In this document: piece after piece, positions 2,456 through 10,402 of the stretch
Numbering within the stretch: position 1 is the first letter of the stretch
Layout: every line of letters starts with the position of its first letter
Origin: a virus
Reading direction: 5' to 3' (one strand)
IMG/VR virus record: IMGVR_UViG_3300000313_000081
Span: 1 to 25,364 of that record
DNA: 25,364 nt
Notes under the pieces: generated by a model
Database searches by the model: none
What the model saw: only the letters and a program-made list of their open reading frames with translations
Told to the model about the DNA's origin: nothing
Program-made: the position numbers and the translations under genes

Positions 2456-3226
2456 ATGCCAGTATCTCAAGCTAAAATTAATCAATGGCAATATTCTCAG
2501 GCGATTAACCGTCGCGTGTGGGATAACCAGTATAACTTTGAAAACTTCGTCCAGAACCCCGTGGTTTCTGCTCTCGGCGGTGGCGCTTCCAGCGGCACAG
2601 GCGGAGTAGTAAACGTCATGCTGTTCCCGTACACGACTTTTGAGTATGTCCCAAAAGGCACTCAGACGATTACGGCCCCTGTGATTGCGAGCGTCGCCGA
2701 AGGCGTTTCCGCTCTTAACTCAGAGATGGATCAAACTGACAATGATGGCGTAGAAATTTGCGCCGGTATTCTCAGTTCAAACCCGAATGCTTTCAAGATT
2801 GCAAGCGCAGCCCCTTTCTTCTTCCGAGCTAGAGTCTCCATGACAACTCCGACAAACACGGATGATTGTGCATTTGGATTCCGCCTAGCAGAAGCATATC
2901 AGGCGAACATCGATGACTACAATGACATGGCCGTGTTGAACGTAATCAACAACGTTATCACCATTGAAACCATCCTCAACGGCGCTGCAACAGTCAGTAC
3001 AAGCACTACTCAAAACTTCGGCACGAGCTCTACACATGATTTAAAAGTCATGGTCGATGCGACTGGCGCAGTGACTTATTCAATCGATGGTCAGCCACCT
3101 ACCGTGACTGCTGCATATTCCTTCCGCAGCGGCATCTATGTTGTTCCTTTCCATTTCTTCCTCCACTCCGCATCTGCTGCCGTTGGCATCAGAATCTTGG
3201 AATGGGAATGTGGATTGGGATCGTAA
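2456..3226 (+). CDS. Lectin-like beta-sandwich structural protein, paralogue 1
   Basis: A 256-residue protein with an AAGGAG site four bases before the ATG. It begins with a helical segment (INRRVWDNQYNFENF) and then a glycine-rich linker (ALGGGASSG). From about residue 55 onward alternating strands resemble concanavalin/LamG-like jelly rolls; the stretches FFFRARVSM, AFGFRLAEAYQ and VTYSIDGQPP are typical edges of such sandwiches. It ends with GIRILEWECG. No signal peptide is present. Proteins of this type are common among tailed-phage virion proteins, so a capsid decoration or head-fibre role is my inference. It is immediately followed, after nine bases, by a diverged tandem copy. It lies about 8 kb from the portal gene, outside the main structural operon. 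Confidence 0.7.
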   Translation: MPVSQAKINQWQYSQAINRRVWDNQYNFENFVQNPVVSALGGGASSGTGGVVNVMLFPYTTFEYVPKGTQTITAPVIASVAEGVSALNSEMDQTDNDGVEICAGILSSNPNAFKIASAAPFFFRARVSMTTPTNTDDCAFGFRLAEAYQANIDDYNDMAVLNVINNVITIETILNGAATVSTSTTQNFGTSSTHDLKVMVDATGAVTYSIDGQPPTVTAAYSFRSGIYVVPFHFFLHSASAAVGIRILEWECGLGS

Positions 3227-3235
3227 GGGGGAAAT

Positions 3236-4300
3236 ATGGTAGTACCACAAAGTAAAATCAATCAATTTGACTATAGCCTTGCGATCAATCGCCGGGTTTG
3301 GGACAACCAATACACGTTTGAGAATTTCTGTCAGAACGGCGTAGCGACAGCTTTAGGGGGCGGTGCTTCCTCTGGCGTGACAGGCGCGACCAATCTATTG
3401 CAATTCACCTATAGCGATTTTGAATACAACATCAAGGGTACTCAGACAATCACAGCGCCGGTAACGGCTCTTGTTTCTGAGACTATTCCGGCGCTCAATC
3501 CAGAAATGGACTTGACGGCGGGCGATGGTGTAGAGATTTGCGGGGGCATTTTAAGTGGCTCTCCAAATGCTTACAAAGTCGCGGCGCAGAATGGCAAACC
3601 TTTCTTCTTCCGAGCTCGCGTTGGCATGTCCACTCCGGAACATGCTATCGAATGTGCTTTTGGATTCAGAAAGCAAGAAGCCTACCAAGCAAACATCGAT
3701 GATTATGCCGATATGGCCGTGTTGAACGTGATCAGTGGAAACATTTTCATTGAGACGATCAAAGGCGGAGCGGCAACAGTCACAACAGACACTACAGATG
3801 ATTTCGTTCCGGGCTCTGTGGTCGATTTTGAAGTTGCGGTTGATGAAGCCGGAGCAGTGACGTACACGATCAACGGAAATCCCGTTACCGTGACGGCTGC
3901 CTACAGCTTCACCGCTGCACTATTCGTTTGCCCATTCTTCTTCCTATTGCATGACGCAACCAACACTGACGTCATCGAATTTGATGGAGATTTCGTTGCA
4001 TTGAATAGCATTGTTGCGACGGTAAACGCGGTTCCAATGACTCCTGTTGTTTTCAACACTGACCAAGCGACAACTATAGCTGCCGTAGCAGCCATGATTG
4101 CCTCTAACCCGGTAGTTGCATCCGCAACTGTTACAGATACCCGTGAGATCACAGTGGTATTCAATACAGGCGGAGCTAACGTGGTCAACTCAGTGGTGAC
4201 AACCCTTGGTGTAAGTCAACCAACAGCCACAATTACCGCTTCCGTAGATGCTGCCACAGGCATCCGCATCTTGGAATGGGAATGTGGTCTTGCAGGATGA
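3236..4300 (+). CDS. Lectin-like beta-sandwich structural protein, paralogue 2 with inserted domain
   Basis: A 354-residue tandem paralogue of the previous gene, with a GGGGGA site before the ATG. Matching blocks run along the whole length: INRRVWDNQY, LGGGASSG, KGTQTITAPV, FFFRARV, EAYQANIDDY, DMAVLNV and the final GIRILEWECGL. The extra length comes from one block of about 90 residues (roughly 245-337) inserted between the last jelly-roll strand (FFLLHDATN) and the C-terminal motif. That block is related to residues 143-230 of the fibre protein at 16338-18194. The product is probably a virion surface protein like its sister; the insert could extend outward from the shell. A strong terminator follows 31 bases after the stop, ending this transcription unit. 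Confidence 0.72.
   Translation: MVVPQSKINQFDYSLAINRRVWDNQYTFENFCQNGVATALGGGASSGVTGATNLLQFTYSDFEYNIKGTQTITAPVTALVSETIPALNPEMDLTAGDGVEICGGILSGSPNAYKVAAQNGKPFFFRARVGMSTPEHAIECAFGFRKQEAYQANIDDYADMAVLNVISGNIFIETIKGGAATVTTDTTDDFVPGSVVDFEVAVDEAGAVTYTINGNPVTVTAAYSFTAALFVCPFFFLLHDATNTDVIEFDGDFVALNSIVATVNAVPMTPVVFNTDQATTIAAVAAMIASNPVVASATVTDTREITVVFNTGGANVVNSVVTTLGVSQPTATITASVDAATGIRILEWECGLAG
3968..4246 (+). other. Inserted beta-rich domain, related to one in the fibre gene at 16764-17027
   Basis: This segment encodes about 93 residues present in paralogue 2 and absent from paralogue 1. Diagnostic blocks are NSIVATV, VFNTDQATT, ASATVT, then a strand with ITVVF, then VNSVVTT and QPTATI. The same series in the same order and spacing occurs in the fibre protein at 16764-17027. 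This type of small beta domain with a central helix (QATTIAAVAAMI) recurs in phage virion proteins; the exact Pfam name is not assigned here. Confidence 0.7.
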
Positions 4301-5846: not shown

Positions 5847-6589
5847 CAAAGTTCATCGGTTTTTATAATCTCTGCCGCTTGAGTCGTGGACGAGCAAGTA
5901 GGTCCATGAATCTCTATGCTCTTGAAATGATGGGACGACGATCCGTTTCCCCCATCTTTGATTGGGAATTTGAAAGACACAAAAAAAGATATGAAGGGAT
6001 CAACCCTGTAGTCCGGGTACTTTCTTACCTCAGCGCCCACATCGATGTCGGGCAGATGATAAGAAATCCTGAACAAAGAGCCCCACTCCATTTTTCTGAC
6101 ATCTAGAATGGGTCCCACCGTCAAAGACGTCTGTTGCAAATGGGCCGTGAACTCCCCGTCGATCTGCACGCCTGACACGATCTTACCCCAGAAAAAATCG
6201 GGCGCTTCTCCCGGGTAATAGTAATGCGCCTTCACTTCCCACAAACGATGCAAAAACTCTAAAGTATGTCCGTATTGCTGCACGGAGATGCCATCAAAGC
6301 TGTGGAAGTGTCCAAAAAAATGATAACCGATTTTAGTTCCCAAAATGGGAAATTGAGCACCCGCTGAGATGGCGCTAGAAACGGGCGTGTCTGGTGAAAA
6401 GTACAATGAAGGCTCGACGATCCATCTTAGTTTAGTTCCCTTTATTTCATCGTACATCGTGCCAGTTAGGCACATCCAAGACATCGTTGTCGAATAGACG
6501 GGGCTCACTTGAAGATGAGTCGATGCGCTGAAATCAAAGGCGCTCAAAAAAAGGGGCCATAAAGCCCCCATTAATTTCACTATGCTCAT
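5846..6589 (-). CDS. Exported outer-membrane protein, intimin/inverse-autotransporter-like barrel candidate
   Basis: I place the start at the ATG at 6587-6589, one base after the upstream stop, because it gives a good signal peptide: MSIVKLMGALWPLFLSAF followed by a polar Ser-rich stretch. An in-frame start 13 codons earlier would bury the signal behind polar residues and overlap the neighbour. The mature sequence is beta-strand-rich with many Tyr/Phe/Trp. The stretch from IGYHFFGHFHSF through TLEFLHRLWEVKAHYYYP resembles the beta domain of inverse autotransporters, where a GxN/FYD-like turn is followed by an E-x-x-x-x-W-x-x-x-x-x-Y-x-P strand. No passenger domain follows. A final 35-residue polar tail follows the last strand (FFVSFKFPI), unusual for a barrel. 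It is the last gene of the - strand rep operon. Confidence 0.6.
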   Translation of the reverse strand: MSIVKLMGALWPLFLSAFDFSASTHLQVSPVYSTTMSWMCLTGTMYDEIKGTKLRWIVEPSLYFSPDTPVSSAISAGAQFPILGTKIGYHFFGHFHSFDGISVQQYGHTLEFLHRLWEVKAHYYYPGEAPDFFWGKIVSGVQIDGEFTAHLQQTSLTVGPILDVRKMEWGSLFRISYHLPDIDVGAEVRKYPDYRVDPFISFFVSFKFPIKDGGNGSSSHHFKSIEIHGPTCSSTTQAAEIIKTDEL

Positions 6590-6590
6590 A

Positions 6591-6803
6591 CTATTCTCTT
6601 GGAGGCCAGTTCCACTGACACGGGCCATCGCCTTGTGTCAAGCCATCGTCCATATGCTGCCCCTTTGGACCAAACACAAACAAGCGCACGGTCCCGTCCG
6701 CCGCCACGTTTTGAATGATCGCGGGAGATTGGGTTGGAGGATATTTTCCGTCAGCACTTCCGGGATGGTTGTAAAGAACGATTCTACCTTTGGTCGGTTT
6801 CAT
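6591..6803 (-). CDS. Small phage protein of the GRIVLYN...WPP type
   Basis: A 70-residue product starting KPTKGRIVLYNHPGS, continuing with PAIIQNVAADGTVRLFVF and ending with GPCQWNWPP. This matches a recognisable pattern of a small uncharacterised phage protein: a compact beta fold with an N-terminal GRIVLY strand, a middle xAIIxxV...VxLxVF block and a C-terminal W-x-WP motif. The biochemical role of that family is not known to me. It is encoded in the - strand operon between an RHH-like gene and the barrel gene, with a single base separating its stop from the next start. Confidence 0.65.
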   Translation of the reverse strand: MKPTKGRIVLYNHPGSADGKYPPTQSPAIIQNVAADGTVRLFVFGPKGQHMDDGLTQGDGPCQWNWPPRE

Positions 6804-6817
6804 GCTACTTCCTTTTT

Positions 6818-7096
6818 TTATTTTCTGGTTGGTTTCTTAAGCTTTGGAATGTCATGGAAAAGATCGAGCTGATTGGGATCAAATTCAGGCTCCGTCTTGT
6901 CTAGTTGCTGGTATGGGAACATCGCCTCGGCTGCAAGACGGAAAAGACGGGAAAAACTAGGCTTGGAGTCGGTCTGATCAGCCAATCTATTGACGAAGAT
7001 TTCCAAGTGTTTTTTGTACTCTTGAGAAATCGTCACGATGATGGTAGCGTTCTTTCCTTTGAACAGCTTCGGTCGGCCATTTTTCTTTTTAAGCAT
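6818..7096 (-). CDS. Small basic protein, possible DNA-binding regulator
   Basis: A 92-residue protein with a strongly basic N-terminus (LKKKNGRPKLFKGKN), then a short strand ATIIVTIS, a helix EYKKHLEIFVNRLA and another helix FSRLFRLAAEAMF. Strand-helix-helix with a basic leader suggests a ribbon-helix-helix-type DNA-binding protein, though the loop between the helices is long. The C-terminal 30 residues are acidic then basic and probably disordered. GGAG lies about seven bases before the ATG, and it overlaps the previous gene by eight bases. It could regulate the rep operon, which is inference only. Confidence 0.5.
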   Translation of the reverse strand: MLKKKNGRPKLFKGKNATIIVTISQEYKKHLEIFVNRLADQTDSKPSFSRLFRLAAEAMFPYQQLDKTEPEFDPNQLDLFHDIPKLKKPTRK

Positions 7097-7496
7097 GTGT
7101 CGCTCCGCTGAATGTTGGATTCGGATAAGGGACTGTCGATCCGTATGCCTGATTTGCCACTTCTTTTGGCTTACAATCGATTAACGCGGGGTGGGCGATA
7201 CCTTTTCTGGCGCAATAACTTTTGATCGATTCTAGGGCCGTTTTTTGAAACTCGTCAGAATTTTTCGGGCCATACCAGCAAAAGTTTGAATAGGCATCTT
7301 GTCCCGTTTTTGGATCGGTATACTTTTCGCTTGGGAAGGCGATAAACACTTCGCCGCTCTTTTTTTGGATCAATTTTAGCTTTGCCATGTAGAAGTCTCT
7401 CTTTACCTCTTGGCAACCAAAAAGAGCAATCACGGATGAATTTTGATCCGAGATGAGATTGAAGTAAGTGATTTTTATTTTATCTTCTGGATTCAT
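7089..7496 (-). CDS. Unknown protein of the rep operon (SpoVG-like strand pattern)
   Basis: A 135-residue protein with its ATG overlapping the stop of the rep gene (ATGA). Its core is a beta-hairpin-like stretch, FYMAKLKLIQKKSGEVFIAF, followed by PSEKYTDPKTGQ, which resembles the K-x-I-x-x-x-G-x-F-I-A-x-P-S block of SpoVG-like nucleic-acid-binding proteins. The rest has a Trp-Tyr block and a helix FQKTALESIKSYCARKG. There is no membrane segment. Coupling to the replication gene suggests a role in replication or its control. The SpoVG resemblance is short and could be fortuitous. Confidence 0.5.
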   Translation of the reverse strand: MNPEDKIKITYFNLISDQNSSVIALFGCQEVKRDFYMAKLKLIQKKSGEVFIAFPSEKYTDPKTGQDAYSNFCWYGPKNSDEFQKTALESIKSYCARKGIAHPALIDCKPKEVANQAYGSTVPYPNPTFSGATHA

Positions 7497-8563
7497 GCGT
7501 ATGCCTTCATGCTGTCAACTTTTTCACACAAAACAATCAAAAAGTCACGCTGCGTATAGTCATAACTCCATCCTGATGTGTGAGATACATATTTTTCAAG
7601 AGCTTTGAAAGAAGGGTTGTCAAAGCAAATCTTCTTTGCCATCTCCCGATTTTGATAAGCCTCATCGGTCATTGGCCTAAACCCTTTATCCAAAGCCACT
7701 CGCACCATACCACCAAACGAATTTTTGATCTCGGTTTTAATGCACGCTTGCTTTGAGTGTTCAAAAGCATCCTTGACTCTGGCCGCTCCATGTTTTTTTA
7801 ACATGGCAGTCAAAAAGTTCTGCTCAAGCTTTGGACCCTTGGGAGGGACGAATCGAATGGCTTCATCGAACACTTCCCTTTGATCCATCGGAAGCGCCGT
7901 ATACCAATTCTTATCGGCATTTAAAGCAGTGACTTTTTTTCTATCTTTCTGAAAGGGCAGTGATTTTTCAGAGAACCCAGAGACAGGGGGTAGGGGGGGG
8001 GATATAGTCTTATGAGTCTCTGTTATCTCTGCTCTTATAGATACAGCAGAGTCTCTGTTCTTCTTCTCTGTTTCTTCTTTGGGTGCATTTGCTGCACCAC
8101 CCTGGTGCATTTGCTGCACCACCCCTGGTGCATTTGCTGCACCACCCCCTAATTGGTCTTTTTCGGCTTGTTTTTTTGCTAACTTTTCTCGGTAAAAGGT
8201 TCCGTTAACATCCCAAATATTAACTATATGGATTATGCTTGTGTCCCAACTTCCGTCTGGTTTTTTTCTTTTCTGTAGTTTTATGAGCGGGCGATTCTTA
8301 AGTATGGGAAAATTGACGCATAGACTGGCTAGATTGGTTTGTAGGGCTCTTATACTGCATCCGCATCTCTTGGCGATTGCATCCATAGACTGCCAGCTCT
8401 TTCCTTTGTCGCCAGCTACTTTTTTGATAGCCCAATAAATTCTAAATTGAAGATGTGATAAAGAAATCTCTTCCAGAATATTAGGAAGCTCTGTCCTAAA
8501 GTGATGATCCGGAAACTCTTCTTCGATTATAAAGTTTTCATTTACAATTTCTTCTGAACTCAT
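7493..8563 (-). CDS. Winged-helix replication-initiator-like protein
   Basis: A 356-residue protein at the head of the - strand operon, with AGGAG five bases before its ATG. Residues about 27-120 form a replication-type winged helix: LPNILEEISLSHLQFRIYWA opens it, the recognition region is SMDAIAKRCGCSIRALQTNL (59-78), and a wing with PLIKLQKRKKPDGS is followed by IIHIVNIWD. This layout occurs in helix-turn-helix Rep/DnaD-like proteins of plasmids and phages. Residues 125-210 are a low-complexity linker encoded by a tandem repeat and by homopolymer tracts. Residues about 215-300 are helical and could be a helicase-loader-like or DNA-binding domain. It probably initiates replication of the element; RepA-like, DnaD-like or transcriptional alternatives remain possible. 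Its leader looks structured and may be attenuated. Confidence 0.62.
   Translation of the reverse strand: MSSEEIVNENFIIEEEFPDHHFRTELPNILEEISLSHLQFRIYWAIKKVAGDKGKSWQSMDAIAKRCGCSIRALQTNLASLCVNFPILKNRPLIKLQKRKKPDGSWDTSIIHIVNIWDVNGTFYREKLAKKQAEKDQLGGGAANAPGVVQQMHQGGAANAPKEETEKKNRDSAVSIRAEITETHKTISPPLPPVSGFSEKSLPFQKDRKKVTALNADKNWYTALPMDQREVFDEAIRFVPPKGPKLEQNFLTAMLKKHGAARVKDAFEHSKQACIKTEIKNSFGGMVRVALDKGFRPMTDEAYQNREMAKKICFDNPSFKALEKYVSHTSGWSYDYTQRDFLIVLCEKVDSMKAYA
7993..8001 (-). repeat. Homopolymer tract (G9 on +, C9 in the rep coding strand)
   Basis: Nine consecutive G on the + strand form a C9 run in the coding strand of the rep gene, in the Pro-rich linker (ISPPLPP, residues 187-193). A second G5 run lies two bases away at 7986-7990. 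Slippage by one base would shift the frame and remove the C-terminal third of the protein while leaving the winged helix. Confidence 0.75.
8082..8150. repeat. Three tandem 22/23/24-bp repeats with internal dyad, inside rep (iteron-like)
   Basis: Three direct copies of GGTGCATTTGCTGCACCACC plus a C run and T lie at 8082-8103 (22 bases), 8104-8126 (23) and 8127-8150 (24). They differ only in the C run, which is three, four and five long. Each copy contains a perfect dyad, GGTGCA and TGCACC around a five-base centre. The three lengths sum to 69, so the frame is restored, giving GGAANAP, then VVQQMHQ, then GGAANAP in the Rep linker. Size and tandem order resemble replication iterons; chlamydial plasmids carry four tandem 22-bp repeats at their origin. 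Iteron function is inferred. Confidence 0.85.
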
Positions 8564-8596
8564 AGAACGCTCCTAAAAAGTCAGAGCGAACAAGAC

Positions 8597-8626
8597 TTGT
8601 CGAAAAAATTGCCGAGACGGTATGAT
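8597..8626 (+). promoter_or_regulatory. Candidate sigma70 promoter for an antisense RNA of the rep leader
   Basis: TTGTCG at 8597-8602 and TATGAT at 8621-8626 are separated by 18 bases, matching four and five of six consensus positions. Transcription would start near 8633 on the + strand, with no + strand gene downstream until 10482. It points into the hairpin-rich region opposite the rep leader. Confidence 0.45.
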
Positions 8627-8649
8627 GCTTGGCATCGCTTAACTGTCGG
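8603..8649 (-). terminator. Candidate attenuator/terminator in the rep leader
   Basis: Read on the - strand, a hairpin with a perfect inner stem (GATGC at 8624-8628 and GCATC at 8632-8636) and outer pairings (CCGA with TCGG, or GACGGT with ACTGTC) is followed by AATTTTTT at 8610-8603. It would stop transcription about 40 bases before the rep ATG. It could terminate read-through from terminase or attenuate rep. Confidence 0.45.
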
Positions 8650-8711
8650 TGTGTTTTTCGGCTCATTGGCCCTAACTAAAATCGGTTGGTTATCCGATCG
8701 TTATGGTTGAA

Positions 8712-8763
8712 CCTCTTGAACCAAATCTGCGTTGCTAGTAACATCACAGACAAGAGGCTTTTT
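8712..8763 (+). terminator. Long-stem hairpin with T-run on the + strand
   Basis: A seven-pair closing stem, CCTCTTG at 8712-8718 and CAAGAGG at 8751-8757, encloses a 32-base loop that has further partial pairing (TCTG with CAGA) and is followed by CTTTTT. It could be the first terminator of the proposed antisense RNA. The large loop makes it weaker than the one at 8812. Confidence 0.45.
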
Positions 8764-8811
8764 AGGTCGGTCACTGGACCGTTGGCTTTTTAACTCACTG
8801 CATCACTCAGA

Positions 8812-8836
8812 CCCTTCGGACAACCGAGGGGTTTTT
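8812..8836 (+). terminator. Intrinsic terminator on the + strand, with no + strand gene before it
   Basis: An eight-pair stem, CCCTTCGG at 8812-8819 and CCGAGGGG at 8824-8831 (one G-T pair), with an ACAA loop is followed by TTTTT at 8832-8836. Both flanking genes run on the - strand, where no T-run follows the stem. The terminator therefore implies a + strand transcript in this gap. Confidence 0.7.
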
Positions 8837-8844
8837 CATTTATA

Positions 8845-8873
8845 AAGATAATTTGAAAGTTATTTTTCATCAA
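8845..8873 (-). promoter_or_regulatory. Candidate promoter for the rep operon
   Basis: On the - strand TTGATG (8873-8868) and TATCTT (8850-8845) are spaced by 17 bases, each matching four of six consensus positions. The start would lie near 8838, giving a leader of about 275 bases before rep that covers the whole hairpin region. The -35 element overlaps the terminase stop codon. The sequence is AT-rich, so chance matches are likely. Confidence 0.3.
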
Positions 8874-10402
8874 GTGAATTTTCCGCGATATGGTCTTAAC
8901 CCCTTCTGCTTAGGCACATTGACTACTAATCCGGCATCACGGAGTGGTTGCAATCGATCCCATTGCTCCTTTTCCCAATTGTTCATCGAGGCTGGCTGGT
9001 AATATTCGTTGGCTATCATGGCCATCGCGCAAATGTGCGGGAAATCCTTGAGCTCGTCCTCTTTAAGCATATTTTGCGCCTCGACTCCGAGCTTGGCGGT
9101 TTGGGTGGAAACGATGAGCTTTTGGCTGTGGATCATTTCCCGGAGGAGTGGGACGCCGCGCTTCGACCATTTCAGGTCTTTGCGGGATTCTGAAAAACCG
9201 GAAACGATGTCGCAAAAAGATGAACTTTCATCGTAGACGATCTTTCGCCAAGGCTTTTTGAATGTTGAGGAGTAACTATCCATTTTCTTTGACATCTCTG
9301 CAAATATGCTTCCATAACCTTTGTCCCAAATTTTATTCAAATGATCGCTTTCTAGGGTATAAATTTTTGATCCAGTGTACTTTGTGTGGAAGAGAACGGC
9401 GTAGATCGCGGTGAGGTGGTGCTCATTGACAACCAAGCCGAAAATCGGCTGGAAAATAGTTGGGTCGGTCGATTTGAGCTCGAAGAGGAGCTGATCAAAA
9501 TCAGTAAGTTGGAGGTCGGGCAGTACCCGATCATCAGACCGGAAGCAGTCCTCCGCCATATATTCGCGGAGCCAAACATCTTCCTTTCCAGCGTCTCGCA
9601 GCTCATTTCTTTTACTGTCCAACCATCCTTTGAGGTGGGGGAGAGCGGTATTGACATATGAAGAATAGTGTACATGAAATCCTTCCGGATTTTTCTTAAT
9701 TCGTTCTTCCCAAACATGATAGTGGTTTTTTTTCTTGGGAGGAGTGCCGCTCAAAATCCAGACTGAATGAGGTTTGGCAGCCATGTTCGGTTCCATCGCG
9801 TCGAGGTATTCCGGCGAGCAGTCTTGAATCTCGTCCCCTACGAACACGTCCGGCTGTGTACCGCGCCCGCGCGCCTCATTCCACGTTCCGATCAGCTTGA
9901 TGATGGACCCGTTCACCATCGTCATTTTGTACTTTTGGTTGTTCACCGCCTTAACGTATTTGGAGAACATTCCCGGGTCCGGACTGTCGCACCATTGGAG
10001 GCGGTTTTCTTCCCAATAAATCTCAAAACCTTGCTCGATGGTCGGACAGCAAATGTAGACGGTGCGCCGGGGTTTTTTGAACGCCAGCGCCCATGCTAGG
10101 TCTATGTTTGTGGAGGTTTTGGCGCCTTTTCTGCCGATGCGGAGGAAGACATATCGTTTACCCTTGTCGAGTACGGCATCGAGGATTTTCTGTTGTCCCG
10201 GATGTCTTGTGCGGAGGGCCTTCCAGTCCTCAAGGAATTGGCGCGTGAGCTTGCTTTCTGCTTCTTCTCCGCTTCCTCCTTCGCTATCTGCTCCCTCGTC
10301 TTGCGTGGCGGTATCGTATGTCTCATCGTCATCCTCTTTTTTAGGTTTGGGCTTCCAAAATCGGTTATGCCCTTGGTTTGTTACATCTTTGAAAAATGAC
10401 AT
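8870..10402 (-). CDS. terL: Terminase large subunit
   Basis: The motor that packages phage DNA into the prohead and cuts it. It is 510 residues. After a disordered acidic N-terminus (about 20-50) the ATPase domain shows a P-loop-like GRKGAKT at 90-96, a Walker B VFVGDE at 186-191 with catalytic Glu, and the coupling motif LSGTPP at 218-222. The C-terminal half has the RNase H-like nuclease layout, with VYDES at 389-393 supplying an Asp and KDFPH near 452-456 supplying a late acidic site. The first catalytic Asp is not seen where it would be expected, in FGLVVNEHHLTAIY at 321-334. It is on the opposite strand to portal and capsid genes, and no small subunit is recognisable beside it. The only Shine-Dalgarno-like site (GGGAAG) is rather far from the ATG. 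Confidence 0.88.
   Translation of the reverse strand: MSFFKDVTNQGHNRFWKPKPKKEDDDETYDTATQDEGADSEGGSGEEAESKLTRQFLEDWKALRTRHPGQQKILDAVLDKGKRYVFLRIGRKGAKTSTNIDLAWALAFKKPRRTVYICCPTIEQGFEIYWEENRLQWCDSPDPGMFSKYVKAVNNQKYKMTMVNGSIIKLIGTWNEARGRGTQPDVFVGDEIQDCSPEYLDAMEPNMAAKPHSVWILSGTPPKKKNHYHVWEERIKKNPEGFHVHYSSYVNTALPHLKGWLDSKRNELRDAGKEDVWLREYMAEDCFRSDDRVLPDLQLTDFDQLLFELKSTDPTIFQPIFGLVVNEHHLTAIYAVLFHTKYTGSKIYTLESDHLNKIWDKGYGSIFAEMSKKMDSYSSTFKKPWRKIVYDESSSFCDIVSGFSESRKDLKWSKRGVPLLREMIHSQKLIVSTQTAKLGVEAQNMLKEDELKDFPHICAMAMIANEYYQPASMNNWEKEQWDRLQPLRDAGLVVNVPKQKGLRPYRGKFT

Follow-up and report, generated by a model that had tools for sequence, protein, structure and literature searches.

The 306-base gap ahead of the replication initiator gene (rep) in IMG/VR virus record IMGVR_UViG_3300000313_000081 is, in the reading that we consider likely, a gene for a small + strand antisense RNA that would cover the rep leader, repress rep and so provide negative feedback on copy number in a phage-plasmid. 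The whole record, of 25,364 bases and possibly incomplete, was analyzed and is called the window. The statistics obtained from it and its relatives establish a commonly placed antisense promoter-like site, an inverted repeat, predicted antisense terminators and the linkage of these elements, together called the module, to rep. From these elements we infer that an RNA is produced, pairs with the rep mRNA and represses rep.

Ten loci were compared, namely the window and nine relatives (L001, L002, L003, L004, L009, L011, L012, L013 and L017) that were retrieved through the large terminase subunit (TerL) or the portal protein and in which the region upstream of rep could be read. Their TerL proteins are 42-59% identical to that of the window where aligned. 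The portal protein of the window used as a lone query retrieved no relatives, and an alignment was required.

The gap and its setting in the window

The features of the window that bear on the proposal are the following.

1 to 747, + strand: ParA-type partition ATPase (PF13614, E 5.7e-38), cut by the contig end
7493 to 8563, - strand: rep-like replication initiator with an HTH_36 domain (PF13730, E 4.5e-8; PHROG replication initiation families)
8078 to 8145, no strand assigned: three direct repeats of ~22 bp within rep, core GGTGCATTTGCTGCACC, with an internal dyad, from a repeat search
8569 to 8574, - strand: Shine-Dalgarno sequence AGGAGC of rep, which can pair with CGCTC immediately upstream (hairpin z -0.12, not above chance)
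8597 to 8626, + strand: promoter-like pair TTGTCG-18-TATGAT for the antisense RNA, at a position relative to rep common to 8 of the 10 loci
8599 to 8662, no strand assigned: imperfect inverted repeat (rod), from the fold, with counterparts in all ten loci
8603 to 8649, - strand: hairpin followed by T6, a possible attenuator, not above chance in the window, with a stronger counterpart in L009
8633 to 8763, + strand: proposed antisense RNA, short form of ~131 nt, from the predicted start to the first terminator
8712 to 8763, + strand: hairpin with CTTTTT, first terminator; the hairpin appears in the fold
8768 to 8791, + strand: hairpin CGGTC-ACTG-GACCG with T5 downstream, second terminator, from the terminator search
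8809 to 8838, + strand: hairpin CCCTTCGG..CCGAGGGG with TTTTT, third and strongest terminator, its score matched by 0 of 40 shuffles of the gap
8845 to 8873, - strand: candidate rep promoter TTGATG-17-TATCTT, overlapping the terminase stop, start at ~8838, statistically unsupported
8870 to 10402, - strand: TerL (phrog_2, E 5.7e-13), the upstream neighbor of the gap

The original prediction described a switch for the replication gene lying between two - strand genes and carrying + strand signals. Its anatomy was borne out: the gap is flanked by the rep-like gene and by TerL, the promoter-like pair is present and is the top-scoring + strand site of the region, and the first and third terminators lie where they had been placed, with the second as an additional hairpin. 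Folding of both strands, which had been proposed as a check, gave z values of -2.3 for the + strand and -3.1 for the - strand. The rod holds the antisense promoter in its left arm and the predicted start near its center, and when read on the - strand it belongs to the rep leader.

The claims made for the rep strand fared less well. The hairpin with T6 exists but is outscored by another - strand terminator candidate in the gap, and the score of the top candidate is itself reached by 9 of 40 shuffles. A rep promoter at the terminase stop can be written, but comparable sites in the six terminase-adjacent loci score no better than shuffles. In the wider region of the window 6 promoter-like matches were counted against 7.0 in shuffles and 8 terminator-like matches against 6.8; because these counts are no higher than in shuffles, the window by itself is no proof of an antisense gene. 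Considered alone its signals are suggestive only, moderately better than chance at most, and it is solely through the comparison with relatives that chance is ruled out.

Profile matches (Pfam and PHROG) identify a portal and a head protein in the window as well, and a search for a tyrosine integrase (PF00589) in the window and nine other viral records found none. With ParA, rep, TerL and portal genes and no integrase, the features by which a phage-plasmid is judged, the window, whose record may be incomplete, reads as a ParA-bearing, integrase-lacking phage-plasmid; ParA was found in L002, L003 and L009 as well. The nearest ParA proteins on known plasmids are chlamydial, from Criblamydia and Protochlamydia, at 36-47% identity, and we take these matches as a hint toward the host, nothing beyond. 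The plasmids of C. trachomatis have two antisense RNAs, to CDS2 and CDS7, which shows that chlamydial plasmids carry such RNAs and is no evidence of kinship with the window.

Two groups of neighboring genes recur. A tandem pair of paralogues in the window (2456-3226 and 3236-4300; MPVSQxxINQWQYSQSINRR...) has similar genes near rep in L001, L002, L011, L012 and L017. A small SpoVG-like protein is encoded at 7089-7496, its Pfam match being weak (E 0.004) and under the cut-off, and look-alikes lie beside or near rep in L001-L004, L009 and L017.

Comparison of ten loci

The window, L001, L002, L003, L009 and L013 have the same order of terminase, gap and rep. The rep gene of L004 and L017 is inverted and diverges from a SpoVG-like gene, and in L011 and L012 rep adjoins yet another gene. 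These rearranged gene orders make it possible to test whether the module tracks the terminase or rep, and we found that it tracks rep: the module is present before rep in all four of the loci in which the terminase is not adjacent. The idea that the module is part of the terminase could thus be ruled out. The suggestion that read-through from the packaging genes is coupled to replication is disfavored by the same four loci.

All ten regions upstream of rep contain a long inverted repeat and antisense-strand terminators, whatever gene adjoins. The conservation of structure rests on fold energies, as the loci are too dissimilar in sequence for covariation. The terminators of L004 (GAGGGAAAGC..GCTTTCCCTC-TTTTTT) and L017 (CCACGC..GCGTGG-TTTTTTT) lie between divergent genes, and hence can serve only a transcript born in the gap or one running antisense out of rep.

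Terminator scores were compared at each locus with 40 shuffles of its own gap. Those of the antisense strand exceed all 40 shuffles in 7 of the 10 loci and 36-38 of the 40 in the remaining three, while rep-strand terminators are missing or weak in most of the loci. In eight loci the predicted start of the best antisense promoter-like site is 67-93 nt away from the start codon of rep, and eight loci within one 26-nt window were reached by 0 of 400 shuffle sets; the mean antisense promoter score is 8.57 against 6.90 (sd 0.43) in shuffles. The rep strand, used as a control, gave 4 loci, the same as shuffles. The promoter matrix is approximate and may not suit the sigma factor of the host, and the comparison holds because the shuffles were scored with the identical matrix. 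No good antisense promoter was found at the common position in L001 and L004.

The 160 nt before rep have fold z values between -2.0 and -7.1 in the ten loci, compared with a mean of -0.68 in 120 segments drawn at random from the same records (Mann-Whitney p 2.7e-6). The longest repeats are those of L001 (50 pairs) and L009 (57 pairs). The predicted antisense start lies 3-6 nt from the center of the repeat in the window, L003, L009, L013 and L017, and 15-23 nt from it in L002, L011 and L012; an alternative, higher-scoring promoter site in L011 would start 6 nt from the center.

The predicted RNA of the window could also end near 8799 or 8838, which gives a range of 131-206 nt overall. Measured to the first terminator, the predicted RNAs are 83-123 nt long in the compact loci L012, L011, L004, L001, L009 and L003 (with hand-placed starts for L001 and L004) and 234-378 nt in L002, L013 and L017. 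Rfam returned no relevant family for the whole window at the gathering score, and relaxed thresholds for the window, L001 and L009 gave no ctRNA family even among the weak matches. A coding role of the + strand RNA was considered and rejected, the frames being only short and overlapping and none evidently common between loci. A 6S-like reading of the rods was also dropped because the promoter lies in the left arm, so that the RNA would not include the rod. At 6461-6638 L001 carries a further antisense promoter-like site (TTTACA-17-TAGCAT), together with another very strong terminator close to the terminase stop, and possibly has two antisense transcripts.

The rep protein of the window gave no match in searches against viral contigs, plasmids and phages. 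The rep proteins behind the module in the ten loci match PHROG families 11233, 9773, 270, 186, 4707, 13246 and 2514, that of L012 being without a clear family match, and from these differing families it follows that the arrangement either moved with, or was rebuilt before, different initiators. In L009 (7636-8917) there are two successive HTH_36 rep-like frames and then a DnaC-like loader, and the antisense module precedes the first frame. The direct repeats within the rep gene of the window are probably origin iterons. Three copies are present inside rep in the window and in L002, two in L001 and L009, where they are weak since they do not exceed the codon-shuffled maximum; none were found within rep in L003 and L004.

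Proposed mechanism and alternatives

In the proposed mechanism the antisense RNA of the window would start near 8633, a position close to the center of the inverted repeat and ~70 nt ahead of the start codon of rep, and would end at one of the three terminators. Only ~20 bases separate the antisense promoter from the Shine-Dalgarno sequence of rep, too few for a separate rep promoter; the rep mRNA would therefore most likely start further right, or come from the terminase side, and its leader would be complementary to the antisense RNA. It is this lack of space before rep that leads us to infer the overlap of the two RNAs. On the model of plasmid countertranscripts, it would be the antisense RNA that pairs with the upstream arm of the leader rod, refolds the leader and reduces rep expression. 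Its dose would track the genome copy number and exert negative feedback on replication, and the phage would persist as a ParA-bearing plasmid with its origin within rep.

The original prediction had cast this arrangement as countertranscript-driven attenuation. An antisense RNA over the rep leader is well supported by the architecture common to the ten diverged loci and by a module that tracks rep, whereas attenuation of the pT181/pIP501 type is not supported as a family trait. The rep-strand terminator before rep is clear in L009 (0 of 40 shuffles) and L003 (2 of 40) only, and no - strand terminator candidate was found before rep in L001, L002, L004, L011 and L012. Premature termination would thus fit L009 and L003.

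Masking of the ribosome site would fit L001 and L009, and L004 in part. If the part of the leader that the antisense RNA would cover is removed, the predicted accessibility of the Shine-Dalgarno sequence falls from 0.53 to 0.01 in L001, from 0.56 to 0.17 in L009 and from 0.70 to 0.38 in L004; at the other loci it changes little (0.21 for the full leader and 0.17 for the uncovered part in the window). One segment could pair either with the upstream arm or with the Shine-Dalgarno sequence in L001 (GGGAGAG / CUCUCCC / AGGAGAG) and likewise in L009 (CAGGUAAA / UUUCCUG / CAGGAAA), and only these two loci have a significant local hairpin ahead of rep (z -4.1 and -2.8, respectively). As a family trait the masking hairpin was rejected, being strong in L001 and L009 only, with a mean z of -0.85 against 0.15 at other starts. 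An automatic search for a segment common to the Shine-Dalgarno sequence and the 5' arm returned mostly AT-rich chance matches. Ribosome-site masking is a lead and not a result, because the start of L001 was set by hand and the rep start of L004 was moved to an internal ATG. The predictions for the window favor neither masking nor premature termination.

Other explanations of the same signals were weighed. The antisense promoter and its short transcript may act on replication mainly through transcription, either by interfering with that of the rep strand or by affecting the origin inside rep, and not through RNA pairing with the rep leader. The precedent is lambda, in which pO, the 77-nt OOP RNA and iterons in O occur together and loss of pO affects plasmid replication (PMC3985674, PMC3349717), and here too repeats lie inside rep and a promoter lies just before it. 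We nevertheless regard this explanation as unlikely: lambda pO overlaps the first codons of O, whereas the start here is ~70-90 nt upstream; OOP overlaps the 3' end of cII, whereas the RNA here ends before a neighbor that varies; and the strong inverted repeats of the leader would be left unexplained. Autoregulatory dyads are common before rep genes, and the very long repeats of L001 and L009 would suit a DNA element, an operator or a dyad for Rep or a host factor, with terminators that insulate the neighbor from stray antisense transcription. Such an element is very unlikely to account for the module, given that the arms are imperfect and their sequences unrelated between loci, and it explains neither the commonly placed promoter in the left arm nor the terminators between divergent genes in L004 and L017.

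Strong + strand terminators and a promoter would be expected of any small RNA gene, including one that acts in trans on other phage or host genes and lies beside rep incidentally. What makes an independent RNA of this kind highly improbable is that the RNA sequence is not conserved among the loci and matches nothing in Rfam, yet its place and orientation relative to rep are conserved. Promoter-like and hairpin-T patterns that arose by chance in an AT-rich gap would agree with the region-wide counts of the window, which equal those of shuffles; set against the ten-locus statistics with their shuffle, opposite-strand and random-segment controls, they are hardly credible.

As a more speculative extension of the antisense RNA proposal, which we put forward tentatively and think somewhat doubtful, one inverted repeat, with the antisense promoter hidden in its left arm, would serve both as that promoter and as leader switch in ParA-bearing tailed phages, and the antisense RNA would set their copy number, the design having been kept through several replacements of rep. 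If the antisense proposal is true, it could explain the low copy number of a phage that lives as a plasmid. The control of copy number in phage-plasmids with lytic replication kept available is little studied, and if an antisense module is kept before different rep genes of phages seen only in metagenomes, RNA copy control would appear to be a portable element in the design of phage-plasmids. If the hosts are chlamydia-like, as ParA faintly hints, the module would also bear on how replication is controlled in bacteria for which genetic tools are scarce.

Comparison with known systems

In RNAI of pT181 (87 nt) and RNAIII of pIP501 (136 nt, with a leader of 329 bp), as predicted for the loci described here, an antisense promoter lies in a long rep leader, the RNA is ~90-140 nt long and ends at a terminator, and the target is the mRNA of the initiator (PMC4981023, PMC5703833). 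The RNAs predicted for the compact loci, 83-131 nt with the window included, fall in the same size range, and some loci have a hairpin with a T-run before rep. The differences are that the attenuator here is not general and is not above chance in the window, that the carrier is a tailed phage and that the initiators are others: none homologous to those of pT181 or pIP501 (Rep_trans or RepR type) was found among the loci, whose initiators are HTH_36, O-like or DnaD-like.

RNAI of pSK41, of about 83 nt, is complementary to the leader ~100 nt upstream of the translation start and is proposed to induce a stem-loop that hides the ribosome site (PMC5703833), much as modelled for L001 and L009; pSK41, however, has a RepA_N initiator and belongs to the staphylococcal plasmids, and a masking switch is not predicted in the window. 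RNAII of pMV158, too, is short and antisense to a rep leader; its 5' part is single-stranded, and it acts on translation (PMC4485353), but pMV158 is a rolling-circle plasmid with CopG and its RNAII is smaller, with a single hairpin.

In lambda, pO is located at the beginning of O and directs transcription away from it to tO, the origin iterons are inside O, and loss of pO alters the replication of lambda plasmids (PMC3985674, PMC3349717). Similar to pO and OOP is the predicted short antisense-strand transcript that leads away from the initiator gene and has its own terminator, as are the origin-type repeats inside the initiator gene, in the window and L002 and more weakly in L001 and L009. In contrast to pO in the first codons of O, the start here is 67-93 nt upstream of rep and is surrounded by a long inverted repeat. 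The predicted RNA does not overlap the neighboring gene as OOP does, stopping short of it in the window, and is not antisense to the 3' end of a cII-like gene, the upstream neighbor being TerL, a SpoVG-like gene or another gene.

The mycobacteriophage example that involves an RNA works differently. The prophages of the non-RepA parABS mycobacteriophages are extrachromosomal and carry partition genes, and a noncoding RNA is important for their replication (PMC7157519); there the RNA region is required and no rep gene was found, whereas here a rep gene is present and the predicted RNA is antisense to its leader. No equivalent was found in the open-access literature on phage-plasmids with ctRNA or antisense control of replication. 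Judged by its sequence, the anatomy of the module is that of plasmid countertranscript control, in a layout that recalls lambda pO and OOP.
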